Positions 3,878 through 20,922 of a stretch of 64,000 nucleotides of DNA are shown here, in pieces. Below the pieces are notes generated by a model, which did not search any database, was not told the DNA's origin, and saw only the letters and a list, made by a program, of their open reading frames with translations. Position 1 is the first letter of the stretch. Each line of letters opens with the position of its first letter. Origin of the DNA: an uncultured Prevotellaceae bacterium (GTDB taxonomy: Bacteria; Bacteroidota; Bacteroidia; Bacteroidales; Bacteroidaceae); contig CASGAM010000017.1 of NCBI GenBank assembly GCA_949299545.1, forward strand, positions 27,611 through 91,610. The letters are read 5' to 3'. Position numbers and translations under genes: made by a program.

Positions 3878-4921
3878 TCAGTTGTTCTCCGGACGCAATT
3901 TACGGACAGTCTCTGCGGTACGCCACATTTCACTGTCATGCAATGCCTGCAATTCCTTCTCCAACTTCACACGGTAATCCGGCTGTGAGTTTGAATCGAT
4001 GGAGATCTGCGCTTCATTACCGGTCTTTACAGATTCGTACAATTTCTGCATAACCGGTTTGATAGCATCGTGGAACGGACCCATCCAGTCCAAAGCACCA
4101 CGCTGTGCCGTTGTTGAACAGTTAGCATACATCCAGTCCATACCCTTCTGTGCGAAAAGCGGCATCAAAGACTGTGTCAATTCCTCTACAGTCTCATTGA
4201 AAGCCTCAGACGGAGTATGTCCGTTTTCACGCAACACTTCATACTGAGCCAGCAACAAGCCTTGGATAGCTCCCATCAAAGAACCACGCTCGCCAGTCAG
4301 GTCAGAATAAACCTCACGTTTGAAAGTGGTCTCAAACAAGTAACCAGAACCGATACCGATACCGAATGCCAGCGTACGGTTCAATGCATTGCCAGTTGCA
4401 TCCTGATAAACAGCGTATGAACTGTTCAAGCCACGACCTTCGAGGAACATGGTACGCAAAGAAGTACCTGATCCCTTAGGAGCGACCATGATGACGTCGA
4501 TGTCGGCAGGAGGAATAATGTTTGTTCTTTCCTTATAAGTGATACCGAAGCCATGTGAGAAATACAAGGCTTTACCCGGTGTCAGATATTCTTTGATTTG
4601 CGGCCATACGGCAATCTGTGCGGCGTCAGACAGCAACATACAAACGATTGTACCTTTTTGGGCTGCCTCTTCTATTGAGAACAAAGTCTCACCCGGCACC
4701 CATCCGTCAGCTACCGCCTTGTCGTAAGTCTTGCCCGGACGCTGGCCAACAATCACGTTGAAACCGTTGTCGCGCAAATTACATGCCTGACCGGGGCCCT
4801 GAACACCATAACCCAATACTGCAATCGTCTCGTTTTTCAAAATCTCACGAGCTTTCTCCAATGGAAATTCTTCGCGGGTCATCACCTTTTCGATCACACC
4901 GCCAAAATTCATTTCTGCCAT
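3878..4921 (-). CDS. ilvC: Ketol-acid reductoisomerase
   Basis: Converts 2-acetolactate or acetohydroxybutyrate to the dihydroxy acid using NADPH and Mg2+, the second shared step of valine, isoleucine and leucine synthesis. The nucleotide-binding loop VLGYGVQGPGQACNLRDNG lies at about residues 34-52. The C-terminal knotted domain carries the metal-binding acids in the DLTGERGSLMGAIQG and ETVEELTQ regions. 347 aa is the short class I size. Last gene of the five-gene operon, directly before the terminator. Confidence 0.97.
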   Translation of the reverse strand: MAEMNFGGVIEKVMTREEFPLEKAREILKNETIAVLGYGVQGPGQACNLRDNGFNVIVGQRPGKTYDKAVADGWVPGETLFSIEEAAQKGTIVCMLLSDAAQIAVWPQIKEYLTPGKALYFSHGFGITYKERTNIIPPADIDVIMVAPKGSGTSLRTMFLEGRGLNSSYAVYQDATGNALNRTLAFGIGIGSGYLFETTFKREVYSDLTGERGSLMGAIQGLLLAQYEVLRENGHTPSEAFNETVEELTQSLMPLFAQKGMDWMYANCSTTAQRGALDWMGPFHDAIKPVMQKLYESVKTGNEAQISIDSNSQPDYRVKLEKELQALHDSEMWRTAETVRKLRPENN

Positions 4922-5036
4922 GTTCTATATTCTTTATTATGCAGCTTACCTGCTGCGTTTTTAATTAAAACTTCTATTTAACATCAAATTCGACCGCAAA
5001 TTTACAAAATTATCCGGAACAACCTAAAATAAATTG

Positions 5037-5804
5037 CTATTTGTTATCAAATTTAATCTTACTCCGGCATACGACTTCTCCTTCCGGTAAATCGCCGCCT
5101 ACATTCTTTCGTACTTCCACATCAAAAACACCGTCTTCCACTTCATCACGGAAGAAACTCAACGTATCGCCATAGTAACTCTCTGCCACGTAAGCCAACT
5201 CAAAACGAGAAATGCGTTTTGTGGCATACCAATCCTTCGGGAACAAATCCAGCACATGTTCTATGTACTTGATACTGTTCACGTGCCCGTTGATGTCTAT
5301 ATCACCATAATAAACTTCTATCGTCCGCACCGGCATCATCTGTGCCACTTTGATACGTCCCGGCTTCTCTATCGGGCAAGGCTTTTCTGCGTCAATATAG
5401 TCTATCAGTTCCTGACCATGAAGCGTAAGCAAATCGGCCGGTTTCCGGCTGTCCAAGTCTATCATCGCCCAAACAGAACGGGCATATCCGTATTCCCTCC
5501 CGTCCTCACCGTAAATTGCAAAATTCCGGTCGGTAAAAAGACGATATACATTTTCAATCCACGTGTCTACAGAAAAATGCTCATATTCAGCCGGCATATC
5601 CTTGAGTTCGATAGCCAAACGTGAAAGCACCCACGTATAATTACTTTCATTCATTTTAGCAATACCGAATCCACGCTCAGTAGCATGGAAACCGGCACTG
5701 TTCAACAAATGGTTACCCAAAACACCCATAAAGAGTTTTCCGGTAAAATCCACATGGAACGGTTCCGCCACAAAATGATAAGTACCTACTTTGCTTTGTT
5801 TCAT
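5037..5804 (-). CDS. Acyl-ACP thioesterase (FatA/FatB type, double hot-dog)
   Basis: Predicted to release fatty acids from acyl carrier protein. The 255-aa protein reads as two tandem hot-dog halves. The second half contains DIDINGHVNSIKYIEHVLD, where the N..H and following N residues match the catalytic Asn/His segment of plant and bacterial acyl-ACP thioesterases. The frame continues 40 codons upstream into ilvN, but the ATG at 5804 starts the conserved protein and sits 16 bases after ilvN. Its place inside the ilv operon recurs in Bacteroides genomes as I remember them, which suggests a link between branched-chain precursors and fatty acids. Confidence 0.88.
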   Translation of the reverse strand: MKQSKVGTYHFVAEPFHVDFTGKLFMGVLGNHLLNSAGFHATERGFGIAKMNESNYTWVLSRLAIELKDMPAEYEHFSVDTWIENVYRLFTDRNFAIYGEDGREYGYARSVWAMIDLDSRKPADLLTLHGQELIDYIDAEKPCPIEKPGRIKVAQMMPVRTIEVYYGDIDINGHVNSIKYIEHVLDLFPKDWYATKRISRFELAYVAESYYGDTLSFFRDEVEDGVFDVEVRKNVGGDLPEGEVVCRSKIKFDNK

Positions 5805-5820
5805 TATAAAATTGTTAATT

Positions 5821-6381
5821 CTACTTCTTCTGCTGCGCCTCGTATGACTTGCGACGTTCCTCAAGAAACTCGTCAAGATACTCCGTGCAACTCTTCGTAA
5901 TCGCGATGCGTCCGGAACGGACATACTGCAAAACGCAGTTGTAATCGTTCAAAGCATAATAAAGCGACATAATGTCGTCTGTCAGGCCCTTTTTACTTAC
6001 AACCGTGTAAGTCGGATTCACCTCTACGATTTGTGCGTCATGATGACGAACAGCCGAAGAGATATTCGGATTGTCAAGCACTGCCGGTGTAGACAGTTTA
6101 TACAATGCCACTTCCTGGATGAAAATCTCATCATCAGTAAAGTAATTGGCTTGCAATACATCGATTTTCTTTTCTATCTGCTTGGTTATTTTCTGAATCT
6201 GTTCTTCCGTACTCCAACACGTTATGGTATACTTATGCACACCTTTGATACTGGAAGCTGACACGTTAAGGCTTTCAATGTTTACCTGACGACGTGTAAA
6301 AACAGCCGTTACCTGATTTAAAAGTCCTGCAAAGTTCTCAGAAAAAACAATCAGGGTATAAAAATTCTTTTCTTGTTCCAT
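5821..6381 (-). CDS. ilvN: Acetolactate synthase small (regulatory) subunit
   Basis: Regulatory partner of IlvB. An N-terminal ACT domain (LIVFSENFAGLLNQVTAVF, about residues 8-26, then the RRQVNIESLNV strand) binds valine for feedback control in this family, and a second alpha/beta domain follows. At 186 aa it is the usual long small-subunit form. An upstream GTG two codons earlier is possible, but the ATG at 6381 leaves a clean 12-base gap after ilvB and gives the standard N terminus. Confidence 0.95.
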   Translation of the reverse strand: MEQEKNFYTLIVFSENFAGLLNQVTAVFTRRQVNIESLNVSASSIKGVHKYTITCWSTEEQIQKITKQIEKKIDVLQANYFTDDEIFIQEVALYKLSTPAVLDNPNISSAVRHHDAQIVEVNPTYTVVSKKGLTDDIMSLYYALNDYNCVLQYVRSGRIAITKSCTEYLDEFLEERRKSYEAQQKK

Positions 6382-6393
6382 TTGCACGTCTCT

Positions 6394-8091
6394 TTAATAG
6401 TCCAACACCATATCATCAACATCACTGCCGGGACAACACATCGGCAATACCTTACCTTCCTCTATGACAGCTACCTGCAAAAGATACGGGCCGTCGGTCG
6501 TTATCATATCACGGATTGCCGCTTCGAGGTCTTCGCGGTTCACGACTGTCTGGTTAGGGATATTGTAAGCCGACGCAATCATATTATAATCCGGATTCAT
6601 CATCGGCGTAAATGAATAACGTTTGCCGAAAAACATTTCCTGCCATTGACGGACATTACCCAGATAATTATTGTTCATCAAAATGATTTTCACCGGACTA
6701 CGTTGCTCCATGATTGTGCCTAGCTCCTGAATTGTCATTTGCATACCGCCGTCACCGAGAAACAGGCATACCATACGGTCGGGAGCGCCAAAAGTAGCAC
6801 CGATGGCAGCCGGTAGGCCGAACCCCATCGTACCCATACCGCCCGAAGTGACAATACTGCGCTTCTCACTAAACTTGAAATAACGTGCGGACATCATCTG
6901 ATTCTGGCCTACATCCGTAACCAGAATGGCTTTATTGTCGGTCATCTCAGTCACTTTACGCACGACCTCACCCATCTTGATGGGTCCGTCAGCGGGATGT
7001 ATTTCCGGTTGGATTACCAGCTCATCTTCTTTTTCAAGGTGTTCCTTAAAACTGTTTTTCCATTCGGCATGTTCATTTTTGTTCACCAAAGCAAGTACCG
7101 CCGCCACTGTTTCCTTGCAATTTCCCAAAACCGGAACATCTACCGGTACATTCTTGTTAATCTCGCTCGGATCAATCTCGAAATGGATTTTCTTGGCCTG
7201 CGTGGCATAAGTACTCAACTTGCCGGTAATACGGTCGTCAAAACGCATACCAACGGCTATCAGCACATCACACTCCTGCGTCTTGACGCTGTTGGCCAAA
7301 CTGCCGTGCATACCGAGCATGCCCATATTGAGCGGATGGTCAGACGGCAAGGCGGACAATCCTAACAATGTACAACCTGCCGGAATATCTGCTTTTTCAA
7401 TCAGTTCACGCACTTCAGCCTGCGCACCGCCCAGTTCCACACCTTGTCCAATAAGGATGAACGGACGTTTGGCACCATTAATAAGTTCGGCTGCCTGACG
7501 CACACTGTCCGGATTCGTTTTCGGAACTGGCACATAGCTGCGAATAAAATCTATCTTCTCCGGCTCGTAATCCACCATGCCGACCTGCGCGTTCTTGGCG
7601 AAGTCCAACACCACGGGTCCCGGACGACCGCTTTTGGCGATATAAAACGCCCGGCTGACAGCCCAAGCCACATCTTCCGGCCGGCGAATCTGGTATGACC
7701 ATTTGCTTATCGGCTGGGTCACCCCCACCAGGTCGCATTCCTGGAAAGCGTCAGAACCTAACATGGACGCACCGACCTGTCCGGCAATGACGACAACCGG
7801 CGTACTGTCCATCATGGCATCGGCTATACCGGTTACGGTATTCGTTGCGCCGGGACCGCTCGTAACCAAACACACGCCAACTTTTCCCGAAACTCGGGCA
7901 TAACCTTGAGCTGCATGCGCAGCCGCTTGCTCATGGCGAACCAAAATATGATTCAACTGGTCTCTATATCCGTACAAGGCATCGTAAACCGGCATGATAG
8001 CACCGCCCGGATAACCGAAGAGCGTGGTCACGCCTTCATGTACCAACGATCGCATCAATGCCTCCGCGCCTGTTATTTTTTCTGTTGCCAT
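6394..8091 (-). CDS. ilvB: Acetolactate synthase large (catalytic) subunit
   Basis: TPP- and FAD-dependent enzyme that condenses pyruvate with pyruvate or 2-oxobutyrate, the first committed step of branched-chain amino acid synthesis. The PYR domain holds the catalytic Glu in LVRHEQAAAHAAQGYARV (about residues 50-67). The PP domain holds the TPP motif GDGGMQMTIQELGT ... NNNYLGNVRQW. The 565-aa length is standard. Followed at 12 bases by its regulatory subunit. Confidence 0.97.
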   Translation of the reverse strand: MATEKITGAEALMRSLVHEGVTTLFGYPGGAIMPVYDALYGYRDQLNHILVRHEQAAAHAAQGYARVSGKVGVCLVTSGPGATNTVTGIADAMMDSTPVVVIAGQVGASMLGSDAFQECDLVGVTQPISKWSYQIRRPEDVAWAVSRAFYIAKSGRPGPVVLDFAKNAQVGMVDYEPEKIDFIRSYVPVPKTNPDSVRQAAELINGAKRPFILIGQGVELGGAQAEVRELIEKADIPAGCTLLGLSALPSDHPLNMGMLGMHGSLANSVKTQECDVLIAVGMRFDDRITGKLSTYATQAKKIHFEIDPSEINKNVPVDVPVLGNCKETVAAVLALVNKNEHAEWKNSFKEHLEKEDELVIQPEIHPADGPIKMGEVVRKVTEMTDNKAILVTDVGQNQMMSARYFKFSEKRSIVTSGGMGTMGFGLPAAIGATFGAPDRMVCLFLGDGGMQMTIQELGTIMEQRSPVKIILMNNNYLGNVRQWQEMFFGKRYSFTPMMNPDYNMIASAYNIPNQTVVNREDLEAAIRDMITTDGPYLLQVAVIEEGKVLPMCCPGSDVDDMVLDY

Positions 8092-8111
8092 ATTTGTTTT
8101 TTCCTTTCTTT

Positions 8112-9914
8112 TTAATCTATAATACGAACACCGCCCTTATCGGCCGAGCTAACCATCGAAGCATAAGCCTTCAATGATTTCGGCACCACGCGGGTACGGG
8201 TCATCGGGCGCTGCGGACGGGCAGCCAGCTCCTCATCGCTCAGTTTCACGTTGATACTGCGGTTCGGTATATCAATTTCGATGATGTCCCCGTCGACAAT
8301 CTTGCCGATATTACCGCCGGCAGCCGCCTCAGGAGAAACATGGCCGATACTCAATCCGGAGGTACCGCCTGAAAAACGTCCGTCGGTAATCAACGCGCAT
8401 TCCTTACCCAGATGGCGGCTCTTCAAGTAGGACGTGGGATAAAGCATTTCCTGCATGCCCGGCCCGCCTTTAGGACCTTCGTGCGTAATTACCACTACAT
8501 CACCGCTCACAACTTTTCCGCCAAGGATTCCCTCGCAGGCATCTTCCTGTGAGTCGAACACTTTCGCCGGACCGCTGAAATGCCAGATGCTTTCATCCAC
8601 ACCGGCTGTCTTTACCACACAACCGTCCTGTGCGATGTTGCCAAAAAGAATAGCCAGACCGCCATCCTTGCTGTAAGCATGCTCCACATCACGGATGCAG
8701 CCCGTTGCACGATCGGTATCCAATGTTTCATAAGCCTTATTCTGAGACCCCATCCGGGTGCTGAAGACGCCTCCCGGCGCACTGGTATAAATACGTTTGG
8801 CCTCAGCATCCACATCAGCCTTCATAATGCTATATTTCTCTATGTCTTCACCAAGCGTGCTGCCATTAACCCGCTTGCAGGTCGTATCCAACAAACCGGC
8901 TTTGTTCAGTTCTCCTAAGATATTAAGGATACCGCCCGCACGATTACACTCCTGGATGGAATATTTCTGCGTGTTCGGCGCAAGTTTGCACAAACACGGC
9001 ACGCGGCGACTCAGGGCGTCTATATCAGCCATTTTGAAGTCTACACCGGCTTCATTGGCTACAGCCAGCAGATGGAGTACGGTATTTGAAGAACCGCCCA
9101 TCGCAATATCCAGCGTCATGGCGTTCAGGAAAGCCTGACGCGTGGCAATACTCTTCGGCAACACGCTCTCGTCGCCCTCTTCATAATACTTATAGGCATT
9201 CTTGACAACCAATGCCGCCGCATCCTTGAACAGCTGCAAACGGTTGGCATGCGTAGCCAATATCGTCCCGTTTCCCGGCAATGACAAGCCGATAGCCTCT
9301 GTCAGACAGTTCATGCTGTTGGCCGTAAACATGCCCGAACAGCTGCCGCAACCCGGACAGGCACAAGCCTCTATCTTGGCAATTTCCTCATCGCTTACCG
9401 TCGTATCGGCCGATTTTATCATGGCCGTAATCAAATCGGCATTCTCCCCGTTGATTTTATGCGCTTCCATTGGTCCGCCGGAAACAAACACCGTCGGAAT
9501 ATTCAAACGCATGCTGGCCATCAGCATGCCCGGCGTAATCTTGTCGCAGTTGGAAATGCAAATCATGGCATCTGCCTTGTGTGCATTCACCATATACTCC
9601 ACGCTGTCGGCAATGATGTCACGAGAAGGCAATGAATACAGCATGCCGTCATGCCCCATTGCGATACCGTCGTCAATGGCAATGGTATTGAACTCGGCCG
9701 CATAACAGCCTAATTTTTCGATTTCCGCCTTTACCATCTGCCCCACTTCATGCAAATGGGTATGTCCCGGTACGAATTGGGTAAAAGAGTTGACGATTGC
9801 AATAATTGGTTTTCCGAATTGTTCGTGTTTCATTCCATTGGCCACCCACAAGGCGCGGGCTCCCGCCATACGTCTTCCTTCTGTGCTTTGCGCACTGCGT
9901 AGTTTGTTCTTCAT
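8112..9914 (-). CDS. ilvD: Dihydroxy-acid dehydratase
   Basis: Iron-sulfur enzyme that dehydrates dihydroxy acids to the 2-keto acids of valine and isoleucine. Cluster-ligand cysteines are in [12 protein letters not shown] and [18 protein letters not shown]; the C terminus has the typical [22 protein letters not shown] motif. The frame stays open for 74 codons upstream, but [18 protein letters not shown] (ATG at 9914) is the family start and agrees with the promoter at 9954-9984. 600 aa is normal. First gene of the ilv operon. The short leader has no visible attenuator peptide. Confidence 0.96.
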
Positions 9915-9953
9915 TATATCTTTTTTATATATACTATAATCCATTTTAGCCCA

Positions 9954-9984
9954 CAAATTTAAGGTTTTTTCCATACTCGGCAAA
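9954..9984 (-). promoter_or_regulatory. Promoter of the ilv operon
   Basis: Minus strand: TTTG (9981-9984), 19-base spacer, TAAATTTG (9954-9961), ending about 40 bases before the ilvD ATG. It matches the Bacteroides consensus and supports the shorter ilvD start. Confidence 0.75.
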
Positions 9985-10175
9985 AGTTTGTTCCATAAAA
10001 ATGGCATTTTGCTAAAAAACAGAAGCAAAGCACATGAAAATCCGATAAAATATAATAAATACAGACTGGTTTGCGACAAAATATAAGCAACCGCTCGATT
10101 CGGAACAAGACAAAAGCATACCGGTTTTGACATCACAGTTTCTTGTCAAAACTGCAAGCGGTTGCAGTAAAATTT

Positions 10176-10238: not shown

Positions 10239-11546
10239 TCAAGCAAATTCCAGCACAAACGTAGTATTCCATCCGCCTGTTCCCGCGGGCAACAAAGTAA
10301 TGGTGCCATTGGACAAAGCCATAATCTGCCGGCTGACGGAAAGACCGATACCGCTGCCGTTGGATTTGGTGGTGAAGAATGGAACAAAGATGTGCTGCCG
10401 CACCTCATCCGAAATCGGTGCCCCGTCATTGCAGACCTTAATGACAACATGTTCATCTTTGCGAACATAGGCCACTACGGCTATTCGTCCCACATTCTCT
10501 CCAATAGCCTGAACTGCGTTGCGTACGATATTGATCAGTACCTGCCGCACCAGATGCTTGTCGGCATATAACATAATATCCACGGGTTCCACCTTATTTT
10601 CAAGTTGGATGGTTTCCGGAACGATTTTCAGCGCCGTTATCTCATCGGTCAGCTCATGCACATAAAACAATGATGGAACGGGCGTCGGCAATGAAGAGAA
10701 GCGCCGATAGTTTTCCACCCATGCCAATAAGCCCTGCGACGTGTTGTAAATAACGGAAAGCCCTTCCTGGAACTGAGCCGGCGTGCGGTCTTTCTTTTCA
10801 AGCAGAGACGCGCTCAACGAAACCACCGGCGTGATGGCATTCATAATTTCATGGGTCAGTACGTGCGACATTTTAATCCAGGCATCAAGTTCGCGCTCAT
10901 CCACCGCTGCCCGCAAATCATTCAGCGTAAAAATACGCAAACATCCCTGCTGCGTTTTCAGAACAGCTGTCCCTAACAACATCTCCCGCGTTCCGTGAGG
11001 CGTGTCATAGGAAAGACGACGCTGGCCGTCAGGCACCAAAAGCCTGAAAGCGTCAGCCACATGGTCACCCACTTTGTTCAACTGTCCCAAACGGACCAGG
11101 GCAGACAGTCCCAACATATTCAATGCTTTCTCGTTACATTGCACTACCCGATCGGCTTCATCCGCCACCACGATACCCGTATTGACATGTTCCAGAATGA
11201 GTTTATAGAAAGTCTCCCGTTCTACCAACTTTTTTTGATTGTTGCCCAGCGTACGGCTGTATGAATCCATCAAAGCATTCAGATGGCGCGTCGTATAGTC
11301 CCAACGTCCCTTGACCGGGAAACGAAAGTTGTAATCCTCGTTGGCAAACGCCTTCAGCATCAGTTCAAACTTCTCATTGAGGTTGCGTTGCGAACGGACT
11401 ATCAGACAAAGCACATACAAGAGCGCCAAAGTAGTCAGTACAGCCCAGACAACATAACCAGCCCACCACAACAGAGCCGACAAAACGGCAAGCAGCACGA
11501 CGCCCAACGTCTGCCGCAATGCAAATAACTGATACCTATAATCCAT
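10239..11546 (-). CDS. Sensor histidine kinase (NtrB/AtoS-like)
   Basis: Membrane sensor kinase of 435 aa. A hydrophobic hairpin (about residues 14-50) anchors the N terminus with almost no periplasmic loop, so the signal is probably sensed in the membrane or cytoplasm. A PAS-like segment (about 110-210, GIVVADEADRVVQCNEKAL) follows, then the phospho-acceptor His232 in SHVLTHEIMNAITP, the N box NIVRNAVQAI (339-348), the G1 box CNDGAPIS and the G2 box GSGIGLS (397-403). Its start overlaps the response regulator stop by 11 bases, so the two are coupled. It should phosphorylate the sigma-54 activator next door. Confidence 0.93.
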   Translation of the reverse strand: MDYRYQLFALRQTLGVVLLAVLSALLWWAGYVVWAVLTTLALLYVLCLIVRSQRNLNEKFELMLKAFANEDYNFRFPVKGRWDYTTRHLNALMDSYSRTLGNNQKKLVERETFYKLILEHVNTGIVVADEADRVVQCNEKALNMLGLSALVRLGQLNKVGDHVADAFRLLVPDGQRRLSYDTPHGTREMLLGTAVLKTQQGCLRIFTLNDLRAAVDERELDAWIKMSHVLTHEIMNAITPVVSLSASLLEKKDRTPAQFQEGLSVIYNTSQGLLAWVENYRRFSSLPTPVPSLFYVHELTDEITALKIVPETIQLENKVEPVDIMLYADKHLVRQVLINIVRNAVQAIGENVGRIAVVAYVRKDEHVVIKVCNDGAPISDEVRQHIFVPFFTTKSNGSGIGLSVSRQIMALSNGTITLLPAGTGGWNTTFVLEFA

Positions 11547-12891
11547 AGCGCTTTATCTTATTGTACAATGTCTGTCGTGTTATTCCCAAGCGTGAAGCCG
11601 CCAGCGAATAATTGCCGCCGCACTGTTCAATCGCCCGCCGTATGGCCGCCGATTCCATCTCCTCCAACGTCTGCGCATTGTCAATGACGCCGACAGACAA
11701 GGGTCCGGTTTTATCCTCGATGTTCAAACACTCTGCCGGCAACAGATGCGACCGACTGTCATCAAACATAATGACGGCACGTTCCACCACATGCTGCAAC
11801 TCACGGATATTGCCGGCCCATACGCCGGCCGTCAGTTTTCCTTCCGCCTCGGCAGTAAACCCTTCCGCCTGCCGGCCGTAAGCCTGCGCGTAGCGTTTCA
11901 AAAAACGCTGTGCCAGCGGCAGGATGTCTTCACGCCGCTCTCTCAAAGGTGGCAGATGCAAATGAATGGTATTGATACGGTATAGCAAATCTTCCCTGAA
12001 CTCCCCACGCGTCACCATCTCTTCAAGACGGCGGTTGGTAGCGCATATCAAACGGATATCCACATCCATAGGCTTATTGCTGCCCACTCTCACAATCTGC
12101 CGGCGCTGCAGTACCGTCAGCAATTTAGCTTGCGAATGCAGAGGCAGGTTACCGATTTCATCCAAAAAAAGCGTTCCCCCATGGGCCGCCTCGAAACGTC
12201 CTGTCCGGTCTGCATGTGCGTCGGTAAAAGCGCCTTTCACATGCCCGAAAAGCTCGCTTTCAAACAAGGTATCTGTAACAGCGCCCATGTCGACCGTTAC
12301 CATCGGAGCATCCCGCCGTTGCGACAGCATGTGGATTTCCTGGGCAAGCACTTCCTTTCCGGTTCCGTTCTCGCCCGTTATCAGGACATTGGCGTCCGTA
12401 CGACTGCACCGTTCCACTTGTTCCCGCAACTGTTTCATGGCCGCCGACGTTCCCCAGTACATGTCTTGCTGCGGCCGGTTATCCTTCTCCCCCTTTGAAA
12501 CTGCGGGCTTACGGCCGGCTGCCTGTATCAGCGTATGTACCAATTTGGCGTTATCCCACGGTTTGACGATAAAATCGGCCGCGCCGCGCTTGATGCCTTC
12601 AACAGCCAGTTCTATATCCGCATAGGCAGTAAACAGCACTACCGGCAGCCGTGGATAACGCGCCTTGATTTCCTGCAACCAATAAAGCCCCTCATTGCCA
12701 CTGTTGATACCTGCCGAGAAATTCATATCGAGCAACACCACATCCACCTTTTCGCGGTCGAGCAGTCCCATGACACCTTGCGGCGAGGAAAGACTGAGAA
12801 TATGTTCAAAATAATCCGCCAACAAGAACTGCAAGGTCGTCAGGATACTTTTATTATCATCCACAATCAATATGGAACGGGCTGTTTTCAT
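11536..12891 (-). CDS. NtrC-family sigma-54-dependent response regulator
   Basis: A 451-aa enhancer-binding protein. Receiver domain (1-120) with acidic pocket Asp11/Asp12, phospho-acceptor Asp55 (VVLLDMNF) and Lys110. AAA+ domain with Walker A GENGTGKE (173-180), the sigma-54 contact loop GAFTDA (220-225; classic form GAFTGA) and Walker B GGTLFLDEIG (238-247). A Fis-type helix-turn-helix ends the protein (AASRLGITRQTLYNKIKRYGL region). Divergent from the export operon, whose promoter is sigma-54 type with two upstream palindromes, so that operon is the obvious target. Confidence 0.95.
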   Translation of the reverse strand: MKTARSILIVDDNKSILTTLQFLLADYFEHILSLSSPQGVMGLLDREKVDVVLLDMNFSAGINSGNEGLYWLQEIKARYPRLPVVLFTAYADIELAVEGIKRGAADFIVKPWDNAKLVHTLIQAAGRKPAVSKGEKDNRPQQDMYWGTSAAMKQLREQVERCSRTDANVLITGENGTGKEVLAQEIHMLSQRRDAPMVTVDMGAVTDTLFESELFGHVKGAFTDAHADRTGRFEAAHGGTLFLDEIGNLPLHSQAKLLTVLQRRQIVRVGSNKPMDVDIRLICATNRRLEEMVTRGEFREDLLYRINTIHLHLPPLRERREDILPLAQRFLKRYAQAYGRQAEGFTAEAEGKLTAGVWAGNIRELQHVVERAVIMFDDSRSHLLPAECLNIEDKTGPLSVGVIDNAQTLEEMESAAIRRAIEQCGGNYSLAASRLGITRQTLYNKIKRYGL

Positions 12892-12993: not shown

Positions 12994-13033
12994 TGTCTAA
13001 TAATTAGACATGGCGGTGTCTATTTTTTAGACA
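12994..13033 (+). promoter_or_regulatory. Two tandem activator sites TGTCTA-N5-TAGACA
   Basis: Two perfect 6-bp-arm palindromes with the same 17-bp layout: TGTCTA-ATAAT-TAGACA (12994-13010) and TGTCTA-TTTTT-TAGACA (13017-13033). Their centres are 23 bp apart, about two helical turns. They lie roughly 75-100 bp upstream of the sigma-54 core promoter, the usual distance for enhancer-binding proteins. The likely binder is the response regulator encoded at 11536-12891. Confidence 0.85.
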
Positions 13034-13088: not shown

Positions 13089-13104
13089 TGGCACGGCATT
13101 TGCT
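13089..13104 (+). promoter_or_regulatory. Sigma-54 (RpoN) -24/-12 promoter of the export operon
   Basis: TGGCACG (13089-13095), four bases, then TTGCT (13100-13104) matches the sigma-54 consensus TGGCACG-N4-TTGCW with no mismatch. The TolC-like gene starts 36 bases downstream. Confidence 0.92.
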
Positions 13105-13139
13105 ATTATTAAGGCAGGAACAATTTGCATTTAATCGAC

Positions 13140-14480
13140 ATGAAAATAAAGCATCTCATCCTTCTTCTGGCATGGCCGGCATCACAGGTAACGGGACAGA
13201 CTGCGGCCTGGACAATGCAAGACTGCATCCGTCACGCCATAACGCACAGCCACAACCTGAAGAGTTACGAATGGAACGTGAAAAGCCAGAAAACCCAGCT
13301 CACCGAAGCCTACACGGCCTTCCTGCCATCGCTCTCGGCCGGCAGCGGACTGAGCTACAGTTTCGGACGCTCCATCGACCCCGGCACCAACAGCTACAGC
13401 ACGGTGGCCAACCTGAACAACAACTATTCAGCCAGCCTGTCCATCCCGCTTTTCAGAGGCGGCATATTGGTCAACCAACTCAAGATTTCACAAACGCAAC
13501 TGGCCGCCGGCCGAAGCCAGTTAGAAGCGCAAAAAGACCAGACAGCCCTGAACGTGATGAATGCTTTCACCGAAGCCGTCTATTACGACCTGATGACGGA
13601 ATATGCACGCGAAAAACTTGAAGAAAGCCGCCTGCAGACGCATAAGACCCGCCGCATGGCGGAACTCGGCATGAAAGGCAAGTCCGACATGGCACTTATC
13701 GAGGCACAGCTGGCTCAGGACGAATACGACTACACGCACAGCCTCTACCTGAAAGAAAATGCCCTGTTAGCGCTCAAGAATCTTATGAACTTTCCGGCCG
13801 AAGATTCGCTTGCTCTCAACACCACTCTTTTGCCTATTGCCGACACGGCGACAACCGACGGCATTGCCATGGCGGAAGAGACGGCACAGTCATACCGTTG
13901 GTCGGAAACCCACAATCCCGGCATGCGGCAAAGCCGCCTCAACTTGCAGCAGCAACTATACTACCGCCGGCAAGCCCTGGGCAATTTTTTCCCGAACATC
14001 TCTTTTTCAGCCGGCATTTCCACCTCCTATTTCCGGACATTGGGCGAACCGGGCTTCGACCATTTCGGACGACAGTTCAAAAACAACCTTGGCGAATACG
14101 TCAGTTTCAATGTCAGCCTGCCTATTTTCAGCCGGCTCGGCAACATCATGAACTACCGCCGCCGCGAATTTCAATATCAAATAGCCCGTGAAAGCCACGA
14201 GCAACAGCAGACTTCTTTATGGACAACCATCCGTCAGACCATCCTTGAGCGCGAATCTCTCCGCAAGGAATATATCCGGATGCTAAAGAAAGTGGAAGCC
14301 GACTCCATTGCGTACACGGTCGTGGCCCGCAAGTTCGATGAAGGGTTGGCAGCCCCGCTCGACCTGAAAACGGCAGCGGCGACCTTGCTCTCCGGACGGG
14401 CTACCCTGTTGCAATGCCGTCTGAACTATGCACTCAAACAACGGTTGGCCGCCTACTATTCAGGACAACCGCTTTATTAA
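13140..14480 (+). CDS. TolC-family outer membrane efflux protein
   Basis: Outer-membrane channel subunit of a tripartite exporter, 446 aa. An N-terminal signal peptide (MKIKHLILLLAWPASQVTGQ) is followed by the two-fold repeated TolC fold: long helices rich in Gln/Glu/Ala and beta segments such as SLSAGSGLSYSFGRSIDP and YVSFNVSLPIFSRLGN. An upstream TTG at 13125 is in frame, but the ATG at 13140 begins the signal peptide directly and follows the sigma-54 promoter. First gene of the operon; the adaptor gene follows at 30 bases. Confidence 0.93.
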   Translation: MKIKHLILLLAWPASQVTGQTAAWTMQDCIRHAITHSHNLKSYEWNVKSQKTQLTEAYTAFLPSLSAGSGLSYSFGRSIDPGTNSYSTVANLNNNYSASLSIPLFRGGILVNQLKISQTQLAAGRSQLEAQKDQTALNVMNAFTEAVYYDLMTEYAREKLEESRLQTHKTRRMAELGMKGKSDMALIEAQLAQDEYDYTHSLYLKENALLALKNLMNFPAEDSLALNTTLLPIADTATTDGIAMAEETAQSYRWSETHNPGMRQSRLNLQQQLYYRRQALGNFFPNISFSAGISTSYFRTLGEPGFDHFGRQFKNNLGEYVSFNVSLPIFSRLGNIMNYRRREFQYQIARESHEQQQTSLWTTIRQTILERESLRKEYIRMLKKVEADSIAYTVVARKFDEGLAAPLDLKTAAATLLSGRATLLQCRLNYALKQRLAAYYSGQPLY

Positions 14481-14510: not shown

Positions 14511-15761
14511 ATGGACATACCTATCAAACAGACCAAAGGCATCAAACGCAGACATCTGCCATGGATTGGCGGCGGCATTATGCTGCTGGCACTCATCGGC
14601 TGGATTATATTCGGGACACATACCAGCGTTTACAAAGTAGACCGGCGCATTGTGAACATCGCCAAAGCCGAAAAAAGCCAATTTGACGATTATGTACGCA
14701 TCAGCGGTCAGGTCACCCCCATTTCCATCGTCCAGGTCGCTCCTGAGGAAGCCGGCATCGTGGAAGAAAAATTAGTGGAAGAAGGCGCGAAAGTGAAAGC
14801 CGGCGACATCCTGCTCAGGCTGAGCAACAGCAATCTCGACATGCAGATCCTCAACGCCGAAGCCGAACTGGCAGAAAAACAAAACCTGTTGCGCAACACC
14901 CAGGTCACCATGCAACAGGACAAGCTCAACAACGAGATGGAGAAACTTCAGCTGGCGCAGGAACTCACACGCAAGGAACGTACCTTCCGCCAGTATGAAC
15001 GTCTGTACCGCGAAGACCTCGTCAGCCGCGAAGAATATCTGCAAACCAAAGAAGACTATGAACTTACCGCCGGCAAGCACCGCCTCATTGTGGAGCGCCT
15101 TCAACAAGACTCCATCTACCGCAGCATCCAGATGCAGCAAATGGAAGACAACCTGGAGAACATGCAGCGCAACCTGACACTCATCCGCGACAGGAAGAAC
15201 AAGCTGGCCGTCCGTTCAAAAATCGACGGCGAACTGGGACAACTCGATGTGGAACTCGGCCAAAGCATCGGCGCCGGCCAGAAAGTGGGACAGGTCAACG
15301 ATCTTTCCGACTTCAAGATTGAAGCCTACATCGACGAGCATTACATTGACCGCGTCCGTACCGGATTGGACGGCGCCTTCACCCGACAGGAACAGAGTTT
15401 TCCCGTACGCATAAGGAAAGTCATGCCCGAAGTCCGTGACGGCAGGTTCTGCACCGAGCTGGTCTTCACCGGCAAACGCCCCGACCGAATCCGTAGCGGA
15501 CAGAACTACGACATCAACCTTCAGCTGGGCCAGTCAACAGAAAGCATTATCATCCCCAAAGGCTCATTTTACCAGATGACCGGCGGAAAATGGATTTTCG
15601 TACTCAGCCCTGACGGCACACATGCCTACCGGCGCAACATCCGCATCGGACGGCAAAACCCGCGCTATTACGAAATACTCGAGGGACTCATGCCCGGCGA
15701 ACAGGTCATCATATCGGGTTATGAAAGCTATAAAACGAGTGACGAATTGGAATTTTTTTAA
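14511..15761 (+). CDS. HlyD/MacA-type periplasmic adaptor (membrane fusion) subunit
   Basis: Links the inner-membrane ABC transporter to the TolC-like channel. One transmembrane helix at about residues 19-40 (WIGGGIMLLALIGWIIFG) anchors it. A barrel-sandwich half (VQVAPEEAGIVEEKLVEEGAKV, about 74-95) precedes a long Gln/Glu/Leu-rich coiled-coil hairpin (about 110-235); the second sandwich half, a beta-barrel and a membrane-proximal domain follow. 416 aa is usual. The C-terminal TKDGTVYRR-like segment appears as LSPDGTHAYRRNIRIG. Confidence 0.93.
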   Translation: MDIPIKQTKGIKRRHLPWIGGGIMLLALIGWIIFGTHTSVYKVDRRIVNIAKAEKSQFDDYVRISGQVTPISIVQVAPEEAGIVEEKLVEEGAKVKAGDILLRLSNSNLDMQILNAEAELAEKQNLLRNTQVTMQQDKLNNEMEKLQLAQELTRKERTFRQYERLYREDLVSREEYLQTKEDYELTAGKHRLIVERLQQDSIYRSIQMQQMEDNLENMQRNLTLIRDRKNKLAVRSKIDGELGQLDVELGQSIGAGQKVGQVNDLSDFKIEAYIDEHYIDRVRTGLDGAFTRQEQSFPVRIRKVMPEVRDGRFCTELVFTGKRPDRIRSGQNYDINLQLGQSTESIIIPKGSFYQMTGGKWIFVLSPDGTHAYRRNIRIGRQNPRYYEILEGLMPGEQVIISGYESYKTSDELEFF

Positions 15762-15797: not shown

Positions 15798-18125
15798 ATG
15801 AAAACACTGTACCGCAACTTTCGCAGCATCTTCCGCCGCTTCCCGGCTTCCATCGTCATGAACGTGGTCGGGCTGACGCTGGCACTGGCCGCTTTCATCA
15901 TCATCATGATGGAGACCCGTTATGAACAGACCTACAACAGCAGCCTGAAAAACATCGACCGGATTTTCTTTCTCAACGAGCAGATAAAAGGAAGTCTGCC
16001 ATCTTCTGTTTTCACCCGTCCGAATATAGAATACATAAAAAACCTTTCACCCGACATCGTCCACAGCGTATATTATGAGCCGGCTTGGTGGCTGGCAGCC
16101 ACAACCCCCGATAATGAAGTTCACATTGAAACGTTGTCATCCGGAGTGGAGCCCGGTTTTTTTTCCATGTTCGGTTTCGACTGGATTGACTGCGACACGA
16201 CGACTTTCGACGACTTCCTTTACATATACATCCCCGAAAGCATGGCGCTTAAATATTTCAACAGAACCGACCTGGTGGGAACCTTCCTGAAGTTAGACCA
16301 TAACGACTATGGCTGGACCATCGGCGGTGTTTACCGTGATTTTCCTGAAAACTGCTCCATAAAGAACATCGTATACAACCTCATGGGCAATGCCTATAAG
16401 GATGAGAGGATAAATTTCTCTCTCAACGGTTTGCTGGAACTGAGACATCCGGAGGACAAAGACAAAGTGGAAAAATTATTGAATGAAGAAGCTACGCCCG
16501 AAGATTCCTTAGTCCTGACGCCCTTCTCGGAAGTGGTCTATCAGAAGGACTTGGACCTACATAACGAAACCGTAAAACTCAATCATCAACAACGCTATGT
16601 CTACTCGGCCATCGCGCTGCTCATCATCCTGATTGCTGCCATCAACTTCACCAACTTCTATACGGCGCTCGCACCGCTGCGCATCAGAAGCCTCAACACA
16701 CAACGCGTGCTGGGTGCCAAACGCCGACAGCTCATAAGGACGCTGATGACCGAAAGCGTCGCGCTGGGACTCGTCTCTTTCCTACTGGCCTTGCTTATCG
16801 TCAAAGCGGCTGAAGACAGTCTCGTCAACGATTTGCTGAAAGTGGACATTTCCATCACGGCCTTCCCCGGCATTATCATCGCAACGGCAGCCATAACCAT
16901 TCTCATCACGCTGGTGGCCAGCCTCTTCCCCGCCCTTTATTCCACCTCTTTCGCCCCGGCCATCGTCCTCAAAGGCAACTTCGGACTGTCGCCGCGCGGA
17001 AAACGGCTGCGCAACCTGCTCATGGGCGCACAGCTCACAGTTGCCATCGAACTGCTTATCGGCGTGGGCGGCATCGTCTCACAGAACTATTACATGCAGC
17101 ATTCCGACTTAGGCTACGACCAGGACCGTATCATCACCATCAATCTCAAAGCCGCCAAAATCTATAACGACAAGGCCGATGCGTTGGCTGAAGAACTGCG
17201 CAAAGTGGCCTGCGTGGAGGATGTGGCATTCTCAAGGTTTCTGTTATCTGCACAGGAAAAAACGGATATCATGCATTGGGGGCGGTCGTCAGAGGACGGA
17301 TCTTATCTGTTTTTTATATGCCTTCCGGTCTCACCCAATTATCTCAAGGTCATGGGCATAAAGCTCATCGAAGGCGAAGACTTCAATCCGAATGACAATA
17401 ACGCACCCATGATTTTCAACAAAGCGGCCCACGATTATAACCCCACTTCCATCCGCATAGGAAAAACGATAGAAGGCAATCACATCGTCGGCATCTGCGA
17501 GGACTTCAAGGTCTCCTCGCTACGCGATGAAGTCACGCCCCTTTGCCTGAAAGTCATGAACGGTGCCTACGCCGACTGGTCATTCAAAGAATTTGCCAAC
17601 ATCCGTGTCAAGGATGGTGTTCCGCTCGAAGAAGCCTTCGGCCCAATCAGGGAGGCCTGCACGGCATTCGCTCCGGAAAGCACGTTCGAGCTGAAAACCC
17701 AGTTCCAGCTCATGGAGAACATCTACACGAACGAGAAACACGTCCAGCAGAACATCATCATCTACTGCTTACTTGCGGTCATCATCTCGATAAGCGGCGT
17801 GTTCAGCATGACACTCTTCGAGTGCAACTACCGGCGCAAGGAAATAGGACTGCGCAAAATCATGGGAGCCACAACGGGCAACATCATACGGATGTTCTTC
17901 AGACAATATGCAGCCATCCTGCTGCTCAGCTTCGTCGTGGCAGCACCGGTCGGATGGTACGGCATCAGCCGCTATCTGGAAGGCTTTGCCTACAAAACGC
18001 CGCAGCACTGGTGGATTTACGCGCTCGCATTCCTCGCCATCGGCACCGTCACGCTCGTCACCGTTTACACACAATGCCGGAAAACGGCACAAGACGACCC
18101 CATCAACGCCATCAGGACGGAATGA
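15798..18125 (+). CDS. ABC transporter permease, FtsX/MacB-like
   Basis: Inner-membrane permease of 775 aa. A first transmembrane helix near residues 15-36 is followed by a large periplasmic domain (about 40-260), helices near 265, 320 and 365, then a second copy of the same plan (helix near 425, periplasmic domain, three C-terminal helices near 655, 705 and 745). This duplicated MacB_PCD plus FtsX layout is the common Bacteroidales form, in which one chain carries both halves. It has no ATPase domain; that is supplied by the next gene. Such systems export peptides, antibiotics or lipids; the substrate is not known. Confidence 0.92.
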   Translation: MKTLYRNFRSIFRRFPASIVMNVVGLTLALAAFIIIMMETRYEQTYNSSLKNIDRIFFLNEQIKGSLPSSVFTRPNIEYIKNLSPDIVHSVYYEPAWWLAATTPDNEVHIETLSSGVEPGFFSMFGFDWIDCDTTTFDDFLYIYIPESMALKYFNRTDLVGTFLKLDHNDYGWTIGGVYRDFPENCSIKNIVYNLMGNAYKDERINFSLNGLLELRHPEDKDKVEKLLNEEATPEDSLVLTPFSEVVYQKDLDLHNETVKLNHQQRYVYSAIALLIILIAAINFTNFYTALAPLRIRSLNTQRVLGAKRRQLIRTLMTESVALGLVSFLLALLIVKAAEDSLVNDLLKVDISITAFPGIIIATAAITILITLVASLFPALYSTSFAPAIVLKGNFGLSPRGKRLRNLLMGAQLTVAIELLIGVGGIVSQNYYMQHSDLGYDQDRIITINLKAAKIYNDKADALAEELRKVACVEDVAFSRFLLSAQEKTDIMHWGRSSEDGSYLFFICLPVSPNYLKVMGIKLIEGEDFNPNDNNAPMIFNKAAHDYNPTSIRIGKTIEGNHIVGICEDFKVSSLRDEVTPLCLKVMNGAYADWSFKEFANIRVKDGVPLEEAFGPIREACTAFAPESTFELKTQFQLMENIYTNEKHVQQNIIIYCLLAVIISISGVFSMTLFECNYRRKEIGLRKIMGATTGNIIRMFFRQYAAILLLSFVVAAPVGWYGISRYLEGFAYKTPQHWWIYALAFLAIGTVTLVTVYTQCRKTAQDDPINAIRTE

Positions 18126-18185: not shown

Positions 18186-18860
18186 ATGATACAACTTGAA
18201 AATTTAGGAAAAACTTTCCGCACGGAAGAAGTGGAAACCATCGCATTGCAGGATATCTGCCTGCACGTAAACAAAGGAGAATTTGTAGCCATCATGGGAC
18301 CGTCGGGTTGCGGAAAATCCACCCTGCTCAACATCATCGGGCTGCTTGACAACCCGTCCGAAGGACATTACCTGCTCAACGGGAAAGAAGTAAGCACCTT
18401 GCATGAAAACGAACGGACCGACCTGCGAAAAGGCGTCATCGGCTTCGTGTTCCAAAGTTTTAACCTCATTGACGAACTGACCGTCAGCGAGAATGTCGAA
18501 CTGCCGCTCACTTACATGAACGTTCCCAAAAAAGAGCGCAAGCAAAGGGTTGAGGCCATGCTCGAACGGATGAAAATGAGCCATCGGGCCAACCACTTCC
18601 CCCAACAGCTCTCCGGCGGACAGCAACAACGTGTGGCCATTGCGCGAGCCGTCATCACCCGTCCGCAACTGATTCTGGCGGACGAACCAACCGGTAACCT
18701 CGATTCAAAAAACGGCAGCGAGGTCATGAACCTGCTCACCGAACTGCACCGTGAAGGCACCACCATCGTCATGGTGACCCACAGCGAACACGACGCCGGC
18801 TTCGCAGGACGTGTCGTCAAGCTCTTTGACGGAAAAATCATTGCCGACATAACGGACTAA
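18186..18860 (+). CDS. ABC transporter ATP-binding protein (LolD/MacB-type)
   Basis: A 224-aa ATPase that powers the permease encoded just upstream. Walker A is [12 protein letters not shown] (about residues 38-49), the signature [14 protein letters not shown] (about 139-152) and Walker [14 protein letters not shown] (about 158-170), with the switch His in VMVTHSEHD. It belongs to the lipoprotein/macrolide exporter class. Last intact gene of the sigma-54 operon. Part of its 5' coding region is duplicated as a relic just downstream, at 18918-18960. Confidence 0.95.
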
Positions 18861-19497: not shown

Positions 19498-20922
19498 ATG
19501 AAAACAGTACGTATTTTAACCATGGCCGTTGCGGCGCTCATGTGGGCCGCCTGCGGCAACGAAGAGTTTTTGGAGCATCATGAGGAGAATGTGGCCGGAA
19601 AGCCCGTGCCCATGACCTTTACGGCCGACGGACCGCAGACACGCACACAGCTGGCGACCAGTAACAAAGTATATTGGACGGAGTACGACGAGATAGCCCT
19701 GTGGGACGGAAGCGGAGAATATCAGAAGTTCATGGTCGATGCCGCATCCATCGACGGCAGCAAGGCCACCTTCTCGGGCTTTGCCACCCCGGGAGCCGAC
19801 TACACCGCCTTCTACCCTCTGATAGCCGTAGATAGAATGGACGACTCAAATATCTACTTCAACCTGCCCGCCGAGCAGACCGCCGTGGCCGGCACCTTTG
19901 CCAACCAGCTGGCGCCCTCGCTGGCCCGGGCCACAGGCGGCAGCACCAGACTGCAGTTCGAGAACCTCTGCGCCCTGGTGAAGTTCACCGCGGGAGCCGA
20001 CATGGCCGGTGAAGGCACCCTTACCCTTGTGGGAGGCAACGCCACCGAGGCGCTGGCCGGCACGCTGACCTGCAACACCGCCGACGGCACGCTGACCGCC
20101 ACCGAGGCCGCCACCCGCATCACCCTCACGGGCAACTTCGAGGCCGGACAGAACTACTACTTCGTCGTGCTTCCCGGCACGCTGGCAGACGGCTTCAGCC
20201 TGCTCTACGATGACGGCAAGGGCAAGCTCTACCGCAAGGCCACCGGCAACTCTGTGACCCTTCAGGCAGGACGCATCCTCAACCTGGGCGAGCTGGCGCT
20301 GACAGGCTTTGATAAGGCAGTTGTCAAAGAAATATACCCTGCCGGAACCCCAAATGCCGACGGCACAGTCACGCTGAACGATGCCGATTTGTCGGCTTTG
20401 GCTGCGATGGGCACGCTGGATGTTTCGCAGAAAAGTTTGACCTCTTTAGGCGGCATCGGTTACTGCACTGGATTGACCTCATTGACTTGCTGGGGAAACA
20501 AGTTGACAGAACTGAACCTTGACGGACTGACCGAGTTGACAGAGTTATATTGCGATAACAACAAGCTTACTTCGTTGGATGTCAGCAAGCAGACCAAGCT
20601 GACCACGTTGGAATGTTACTATAACGACCTGACTGTGCTGAACCTCGGCGAGTTGTCTCAGCTTACAGACTTGCGATGCCACGTCAACCAACTGACTTCA
20701 CTGGATGTCAGTCAGCTAACGCGGCTTAATTTATTGATGTGTTATCAAAACAAACTGACTGCGCTGGACATCACCCGGCTGCCAAACCTGAAAACCCTTT
20801 ATTGCGGCAATCAGAGAGACGGCCGGCAGCTGACGCTGACCCTGACGGAGGCACAGGAAGGAGTGTGGAACAGTTGGAGTTACGACTCTGATAATACGAA
20901 TGTCACCCTCGACGTGAAATAA
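19498..20922 (+). CDS. Fimbrillin-like lipoprotein with internalin-type leucine-rich repeats
   Basis: Surface lipoprotein of 474 aa. A lipobox (MWAAC) puts the lipidated Cys at about residue 19. Residues 35-265 form a fimbrillin/Mfa-like beta domain (VPMTFTADGPQTRTQL ... ILNLGELAL). From about 290 come LRRs of 21 residues with the pattern LT-x-L-x-C-x-x-N-x-LT-x-LD: five full copies and one partial. A short tail ends DNTNVTLDVK. LRR domains of this kind bind proteins or glycans, so adhesion is likely. Preceded by the YxAP peptide gene. The N-terminal module is related to the protein at 33643-36486, but the LRR class differs. Confidence 0.85.
   Translation: MKTVRILTMAVAALMWAACGNEEFLEHHEENVAGKPVPMTFTADGPQTRTQLATSNKVYWTEYDEIALWDGSGEYQKFMVDAASIDGSKATFSGFATPGADYTAFYPLIAVDRMDDSNIYFNLPAEQTAVAGTFANQLAPSLARATGGSTRLQFENLCALVKFTAGADMAGEGTLTLVGGNATEALAGTLTCNTADGTLTATEAATRITLTGNFEAGQNYYFVVLPGTLADGFSLLYDDGKGKLYRKATGNSVTLQAGRILNLGELALTGFDKAVVKEIYPAGTPNADGTVTLNDADLSALAAMGTLDVSQKSLTSLGGIGYCTGLTSLTCWGNKLTELNLDGLTELTELYCDNNKLTSLDVSKQTKLTTLECYYNDLTVLNLGELSQLTDLRCHVNQLTSLDVSQLTRLNLLMCYQNKLTALDITRLPNLKTLYCGNQRDGRQLTLTLTEAQEGVWNSWSYDSDNTNVTLDVK

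Follow-up and report, generated by a model that had tools for sequence, protein, structure and literature searches.

The window, meaning the whole stretch of 64,000 nucleotides analysed here, comes from a source assembly of 2.32 Mb that is 79% complete, and it holds two divergent gene groups separated by a 248-bp intergenic region. On the reverse strand lie a membrane histidine kinase (10239-11546; PAS and HATPase_c domains by Pfam, with a hydrophobic N-terminus at about residues 7-53 by hydropathy) and an NtrC-type response regulator of 451 aa (11536-12891). All three Pfam domains of the regulator, namely the receiver (PF00072), the Sigma54_activat AAA+ domain (PF00158) and the Fis-type HTH (PF02954), score above cut-off, and its PDB sequence relatives include NtrC-family regulators, ZraR and FleQ. 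On the forward strand, Pfam identifies an exporter operon that begins with a TolC-like outer-membrane efflux protein (OEP; 13140-14480), followed by a HlyD/MacA-like periplasmic adaptor (14511-15761; HlyD_3/HlyD_D23), a permease of 775 aa with two FtsX and two MacB_PCD stretches (15798-18125) and an ABC transporter ATPase of 224 aa (18186-18860); PDB sequence relatives support the assignments of adaptor and permease. The neighbourhood named in the original prediction was therefore confirmed gene by gene. Also seen nearby were an ordinary branched-chain amino acid biosynthesis cluster, recognised from translations (3878-10136, reverse strand), and, downstream of the exporter operon, a leucine-rich-repeat protein with weak fimbrillin-like similarity (19498-20922).

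The exporter resembles the MacAB-TolC kind in having both a periplasmic adaptor and a TolC-like channel (HlyD_3/HlyD_D23 and OEP). MacB is an ATPase fused to an FtsX-type permease, whereas here the ATPase (224 aa) and the permease are separate and the permease carries two FtsX stretches. Adaptor and permease are distant sequence relatives of MacA-MacB-TolC (PDB 5nik), sharing the MacB_PCD and FtsX domains.

A -24/-12 (sigma-54) promoter element, TGGCACGGCATTTGCT, was located by pattern match at 13089-13104 on the forward strand, with TGGCACG and TTGCT flanking the spacer GCAT. It agrees with TGGCACG-N4-TTGCW without a mismatch, as had been predicted, and has GG at -24 and GC at -12 at the correct spacing. 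The predicted distance of 36 bases to the TolC-like gene is also accurate, with the last base of the motif 36 positions before the ATG at 13140 and 35 bases in between. By convention, sigma-54 transcription begins 12 bases downstream of the C in the -12 element, and the transcription start is thereby predicted near 13115.

The original prediction had laid weight on the perfect match to the consensus. The match is present but its perfection is not what counts, as 19 of the 63 related sites match fully and 49% retain the C of the -12 'GC'. TGGCACG and TTTG do not vary between the intergenic region of the window and those of five same-genus relatives (three of which are nearly identical), and the -12 element of the five relatives is TTTGA, not TTTGC. 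The element is the sole perfect match to TGGCAYR-N4-TTGCW in the window, where four matches with at most one mismatch compare with 3.26 expected. Among 20,000 first-order Markov simulations of the 248-bp intergenic region, scanned on both strands, a 12/12 match (Y and R relaxed) arose 6 times and a match of at least 11/12 arose 204 times. The source genome holds four perfect sites, against none for the reversed control; two precede exporter operons (the one in the window and one on contig 23) and two lie within ORFs. Exact matches to TGGCAYG-N4-TTGCW in 41 genomes number 76, against 32 for the reversed control. Chance would thus account for about two in five perfect matches, and the case for sigma-54 has to be made from context. 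Counts of the perfect 16-mer were accordingly set aside as weak evidence for sigma-54 control, and motif perfection alone is suggestive, not decisive.

Part of this context is provided by two 17-bp palindromes in the same intergenic region, absent from the original prediction, whose centres are 23 bp apart. The distal one, TGTCTAATAATTAGACA (12994-13010), starts 95 bp before the -24 element and the proximal one, TGTCTATTTTTTAGACA (13017-13033), starts 72 bp before it. In the 2.32-Mb, incomplete source assembly, the form TGTCYA-N5-TRGACA occurs at these two places only (12994 and 13017), and none of the 20,000 simulated intergenic regions contained at least two such palindromes. Most of each palindrome is kept across the intergenic region of the window and the five same-genus ones (three nearly identical). 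The palindromes are likely enhancer sites of the divergent NtrC-type activator, and, since they were found nowhere else in the incomplete assembly, the circuit is probably dedicated to one exporter and one promoter.

The source genome has one match to rpoN (G000:C41:119417-119893, E 9.5e-53), together with five high-scoring and two weak matches to sigma-54 activators. Exporters adjoin three of the five high-scoring activators, and the two further activator-linked exporter operons also carry the element, at 12/12 on contig 23 and 11/12 on contig 30. The contig 23 operon comprises HlyD, FtsX permeases, an ABC ATPase and TolC/OEP (Pfam) with activator and kinase; its perfect -24/-12 element stands before HlyD (L084:14798-14813), accompanied by the palindrome GTGTCCGTTTTCGGACAC of the form GTGTCCG-N4-CGGACAC. 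On contig 30, the activator-exporter pair (L088:5578-5803) has GTGCG-type repeats upstream, and OEP, HlyD and FtsX were identified by Pfam; no ATPase gene was seen in this operon, whose contig ends beyond the permease. The recognition helices of both activators differ from that of the window activator.

A wider comparison was based on 40 same-family loci and 80 named loci, the latter being the best 80 of 552 confirmed relatives and including Phocaeicola, Bacteroides, Parabacteroides, Tannerella, Prevotella and Muribaculaceae. From 121 loci, one without HlyD (L036) was dropped, followed by 18 of the remaining 120 (7 duplicates, 7 without TolC directly before HlyD and 4 with a short upstream), which left 102 non-redundant loci, window included, among which close relatives such as L032, L034 and L035 remain. 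A regulator within 1.5 kb was taken as adjacent. Several loci were reclassified by hand: L167 as full (frameshifted), L053 and L058 as short, and L056, L064 and L068 as full-far, that is, with a full activator distant or downstream. The regulators beside the operon are of two kinds, either full (receiver-AAA+-Fis) or short (receiver and Fis without AAA+). Short regulators measure about 170-176 aa in most of 13 family examples, and the 30 members placed in the tree described below are ORFs of 150-220 aa. Their length had led to the guess of a LytTR-type output domain, which was discarded, as Pfam found a receiver and a Fis HTH (HTH_8) and no AAA+ in all 8 scanned.

The two kinds of regulator are accompanied by different promoters. 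Where a full activator is adjacent, the -24/-12 element stands before TolC in 35 of 36 loci; none of the 26 loci that adjoin a short regulator has it. Match thresholds were fixed after the first loci had been seen, which makes the Fisher value of 1.3e-16 descriptive, and the loci are related. The element is also present in 7 of 10 full-far loci, in neither of 2 loci with a distant short regulator and in 21 of the 28 loci whose fetched flanks showed no regulator, while reversed and reverse-complemented upstreams each gave 1 in 102. The motif is accordingly conserved at orthologous loci with a linked full activator, the kind of comparison that the original prediction had suggested. The housekeeping pattern, defined as TT[TG]-N18-23-TAnnTTTG, shows the reverse distribution: it is missing from all 36 loci where a full activator is adjacent and present in 18 of the 26 that adjoin a short regulator (8 lack it), and it also occurs in 1 of the 10 full-far loci and in 4 of the 28 for which no regulator was found. 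Both patterns occur together in three loci (L116, L131 and L136). The palindrome is less sharply divided, being present in 30 of 36 adjacent full-activator loci and in 15 of 26 adjacent short-regulator loci (absent from 11).

The arrangement of palindrome and promoter is narrow in both classes. Across the 63 motif-bearing loci, 41 palindromes are centred 62-65 bp upstream of the motif and 27 are centred 84-87 bp upstream, with 5 more at 130-137 bp. At least one palindrome at 60-66 or 82-88 bp is found in 46 of these loci, both positions are occupied in 22, and 14 have no palindrome. In three loci (L139, L144 and L154), the detected palindrome is farther from the -24 element, at 143-145 bp and not at 70-95 bp. 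For the short class, 11 loci allowed placement of both a palindrome and TAnnTTTG, and the centre is exactly 58 bp before TA in 10; one of these ten has a second palindrome at 81 bp, and the eleventh locus has one at 80 bp only. By convention, the 62-65/84-87-bp arrangement is that of a remote enhancer and the 58-bp arrangement that of a class-I activator site.

These distributions bear on the possibility that the motif at 13089-13104 is a chance match and that this intergenic region contains a housekeeping (sigma-ABfr) promoter from which the operon is transcribed. Perfect sites are common, as the counts in 41 genomes illustrate, and the -12 element includes a TTTG similar to the -7 element TAnnTTTG, which is the housekeeping consensus in the available parts of PMC7366714 and PMC12632263. 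However, the two bases four before the TTTG of 13089-13104 are not TA, the motif-palindrome spacing is narrow, and loci with an adjacent full activator have the motif almost without exception and the housekeeping pattern never. A chance match is consequently regarded as highly improbable.

A few loci depart from the general scheme. L158 is the only locus with an adjacent activator that lacks the motif, TGGCTCG replacing TGGCACG; TGGCTCGATATTTGG stands before TolC in both L153 and L158, which were counted as misses, and a TGGCA scan found no promoter upstream of their co-directional regulator genes. In L041 and L130, which are one locus from two collections, the -24/-12 spacing upstream of TolC is one base short (TGGCACG-TTT-TTGCA) and both palindromes are present. 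The Parabacteroides activator gene at L167:1159-2494 is split by a frameshift, either real or an assembly error, beside a motif and palindromes.

The comparison also addresses whether the promoter is a genuine sigma-54 promoter whose acting activator is encoded elsewhere, the divergent pair regulating something else. In many Parabacteroides and Tannerella loci, the motif and palindromes are present and the fetched flanks contain no activator, from which it follows that an activator can probably act in trans; in six Parabacteroides loci of this type (L135, L136, L145, L152, L162 and L165), it may be encoded elsewhere in the genome. For the window, this explanation is given very little credence. 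In the incomplete source assembly, the palindrome was found at this locus only, and the other two exporter-linked activators differ in both recognition helices and palindromes. Moreover, the same palindrome is often found next to short regulators, most of which have a similar helix (RQTLYNK). The description of the circuit as self-contained accordingly holds here and is not general, given the 21 of 28 loci that carry the motif with no regulator in their flanks.

Expression of the regulatory genes themselves appears to follow another route. Of 32 divergent full-activator loci, 29 have TAnnTTTG within the 160 bp before the regulator gene, and reversed sequence gives 2 of 32, so the activator and kinase genes are probably read by the housekeeping polymerase.

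Taken together, 13089-13104 is very probably the sigma-54 promoter of the exporter operon under control of the divergent activator, and the clade without AAA+ probably uses class-I activation. That the motif drives the operon, as originally proposed, is strongly supported by the motif itself, the palindromes, their fixed spacing, the co-occurrence with AAA+ and the presence of rpoN, the evidence being comparative throughout. In the circuit envisaged, the housekeeping promoter TATATTTG, about 31 bp before the regulator start, would supply a basal level of the divergent kinase and regulator. The membrane kinase would phosphorylate the regulator, which would then assemble on the two palindromes, whose centres are near -90 and -113. 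From there, it would loop to a waiting sigma-54 polymerase at 13089-13104, and its AAA+ motor would open the promoter for transcription of the TolC-HlyD-permease-ATPase operon. In the related clade without AAA+, the palindrome, where kept, is usually exactly 58 bp upstream of the housekeeping TAnnTTTG, and the short regulator probably functions like any class-I activator; the direction of evolutionary change is our inference.

No periplasmic sensor domain was recognised in the kinase (10239-11546) by Pfam or hydropathy. The short-class kinases scanned are of 284-309 aa, most with one hydrophobic segment, and kinases of this size also occur in two full-activator loci (L065 and L066). In BceAB-type modules, the transporter relays the signal, and by analogy our guess is that the transporter itself might do so here.

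The activator shares with NtrC and ZraR, both NtrC-type regulators with sigma-54 promoters, the domain order, palindromic upstream sites, a -24/-12 promoter and a divergent target. It differs in that its target is an ABC exporter, in that its palindromes were found at one promoter only in the source genome, and in its loop. The loop is GAFTDA instead of GAFTGA in the window protein and its five same-genus orthologues, and GAFTDA or GSFTDA replaces GAFTGA in 39 of 43 full activators. In the available parts of a Desulfovibrio survey, GAFTDA is among the variants that would keep activity (PMC4641369).

The origin of the short regulators was considered from trees of HlyD and of the receiver plus Fis segments. 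On the HlyD tree, the regulator class changes only 2 times, and although both independent pairs agree with the model, two pairs are too few for significance (sign test p 0.5). In the receiver-plus-Fis tree, the 30 short regulators form one clade (support 96) among the full activators. The simplest history, not a proven one, is loss of the AAA+ domain. Loss of rpoN was rejected as the cause of the promoter switch: rpoN was found in 149 of 151 family genomes (the misses being G050 and G131) and in all 14 short-regulator family genomes tested (G006, G010, G012, G017, G023, G044, G049, G060, G086, G100, G102, G115, G122 and G138). With rpoN kept where tested, the change would be a rewiring of one circuit and not a by-product of sigma-54 loss.

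We lean, with some reserve, towards a scenario in which a Bacteroidales activator lost its AAA+ motor and became a class-I activator of the housekeeping polymerase at an orthologous promoter. It would have retained its receiver and Fis helix and, in many lineages, its operator, while the promoter changed from -24/-12 to TAnnTTTG with the operator at exactly 58 bp. It is a less probable but serious alternative that the short regulator does not descend from a sigma-54 activator by loss of AAA+, and that the two classes have separate histories and share the operator for another reason. The backbone support of the receiver-plus-Fis tree (87, 88 and 87, below the starred level) leaves room for such separate histories, as does L062, whose different placement in the two trees hints at gene exchange. 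Against them, the receiver and Fis segments of the short forms align with those of full activators, both trees place the short forms among the full ones, and the two classes share one form of palindrome. Short response regulators with a receiver and a Fis HTH without AAA+ are known as the RegA/PrrA/ActR kind; what differs here is that orthologous operons are adjoined by forms with and without AAA+, which often have one operator in common. At the short-regulator loci, the AAA+ domain and the -24/-12 element are missing together and the operator often persists; this combination looks new, being unreported in the open-licence literature searched (subscription papers lie mostly outside it).

Sigma-54 control of Bacteroidia ABC permeases is prior art as a prediction. 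In its available parts, the survey of sigma-54 regulons by Carrera-Reyna 2025 (PMC12316311) describes COG0577 ABC permeases of Bacteroidia as enriched for sigma-54 regulation, which makes it an independent prediction for the same phylum and the same type of target. The view of the phylum as little studied for sigma-54 targets thus needs correction, sigma-54 control of such permeases having been predicted in bulk. The same parts of the survey describe no operators, spacing or regulator swap. It kept only activators containing GAFTGA and would therefore miss most of the activators described here, with their GAFTDA/GSFTDA loop, as would any survey with this demand.

Loci with and without the AAA+ domain make it testable how a looping ATPase switch turns into simple recruitment while regulator and operator stay unchanged. 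A sigma-54 promoter stays almost silent unless a dedicated ATPase opens it. For this reason, a circuit of one pump and one activator, if true, would mean very tight control of an exporter in host-associated bacteria.
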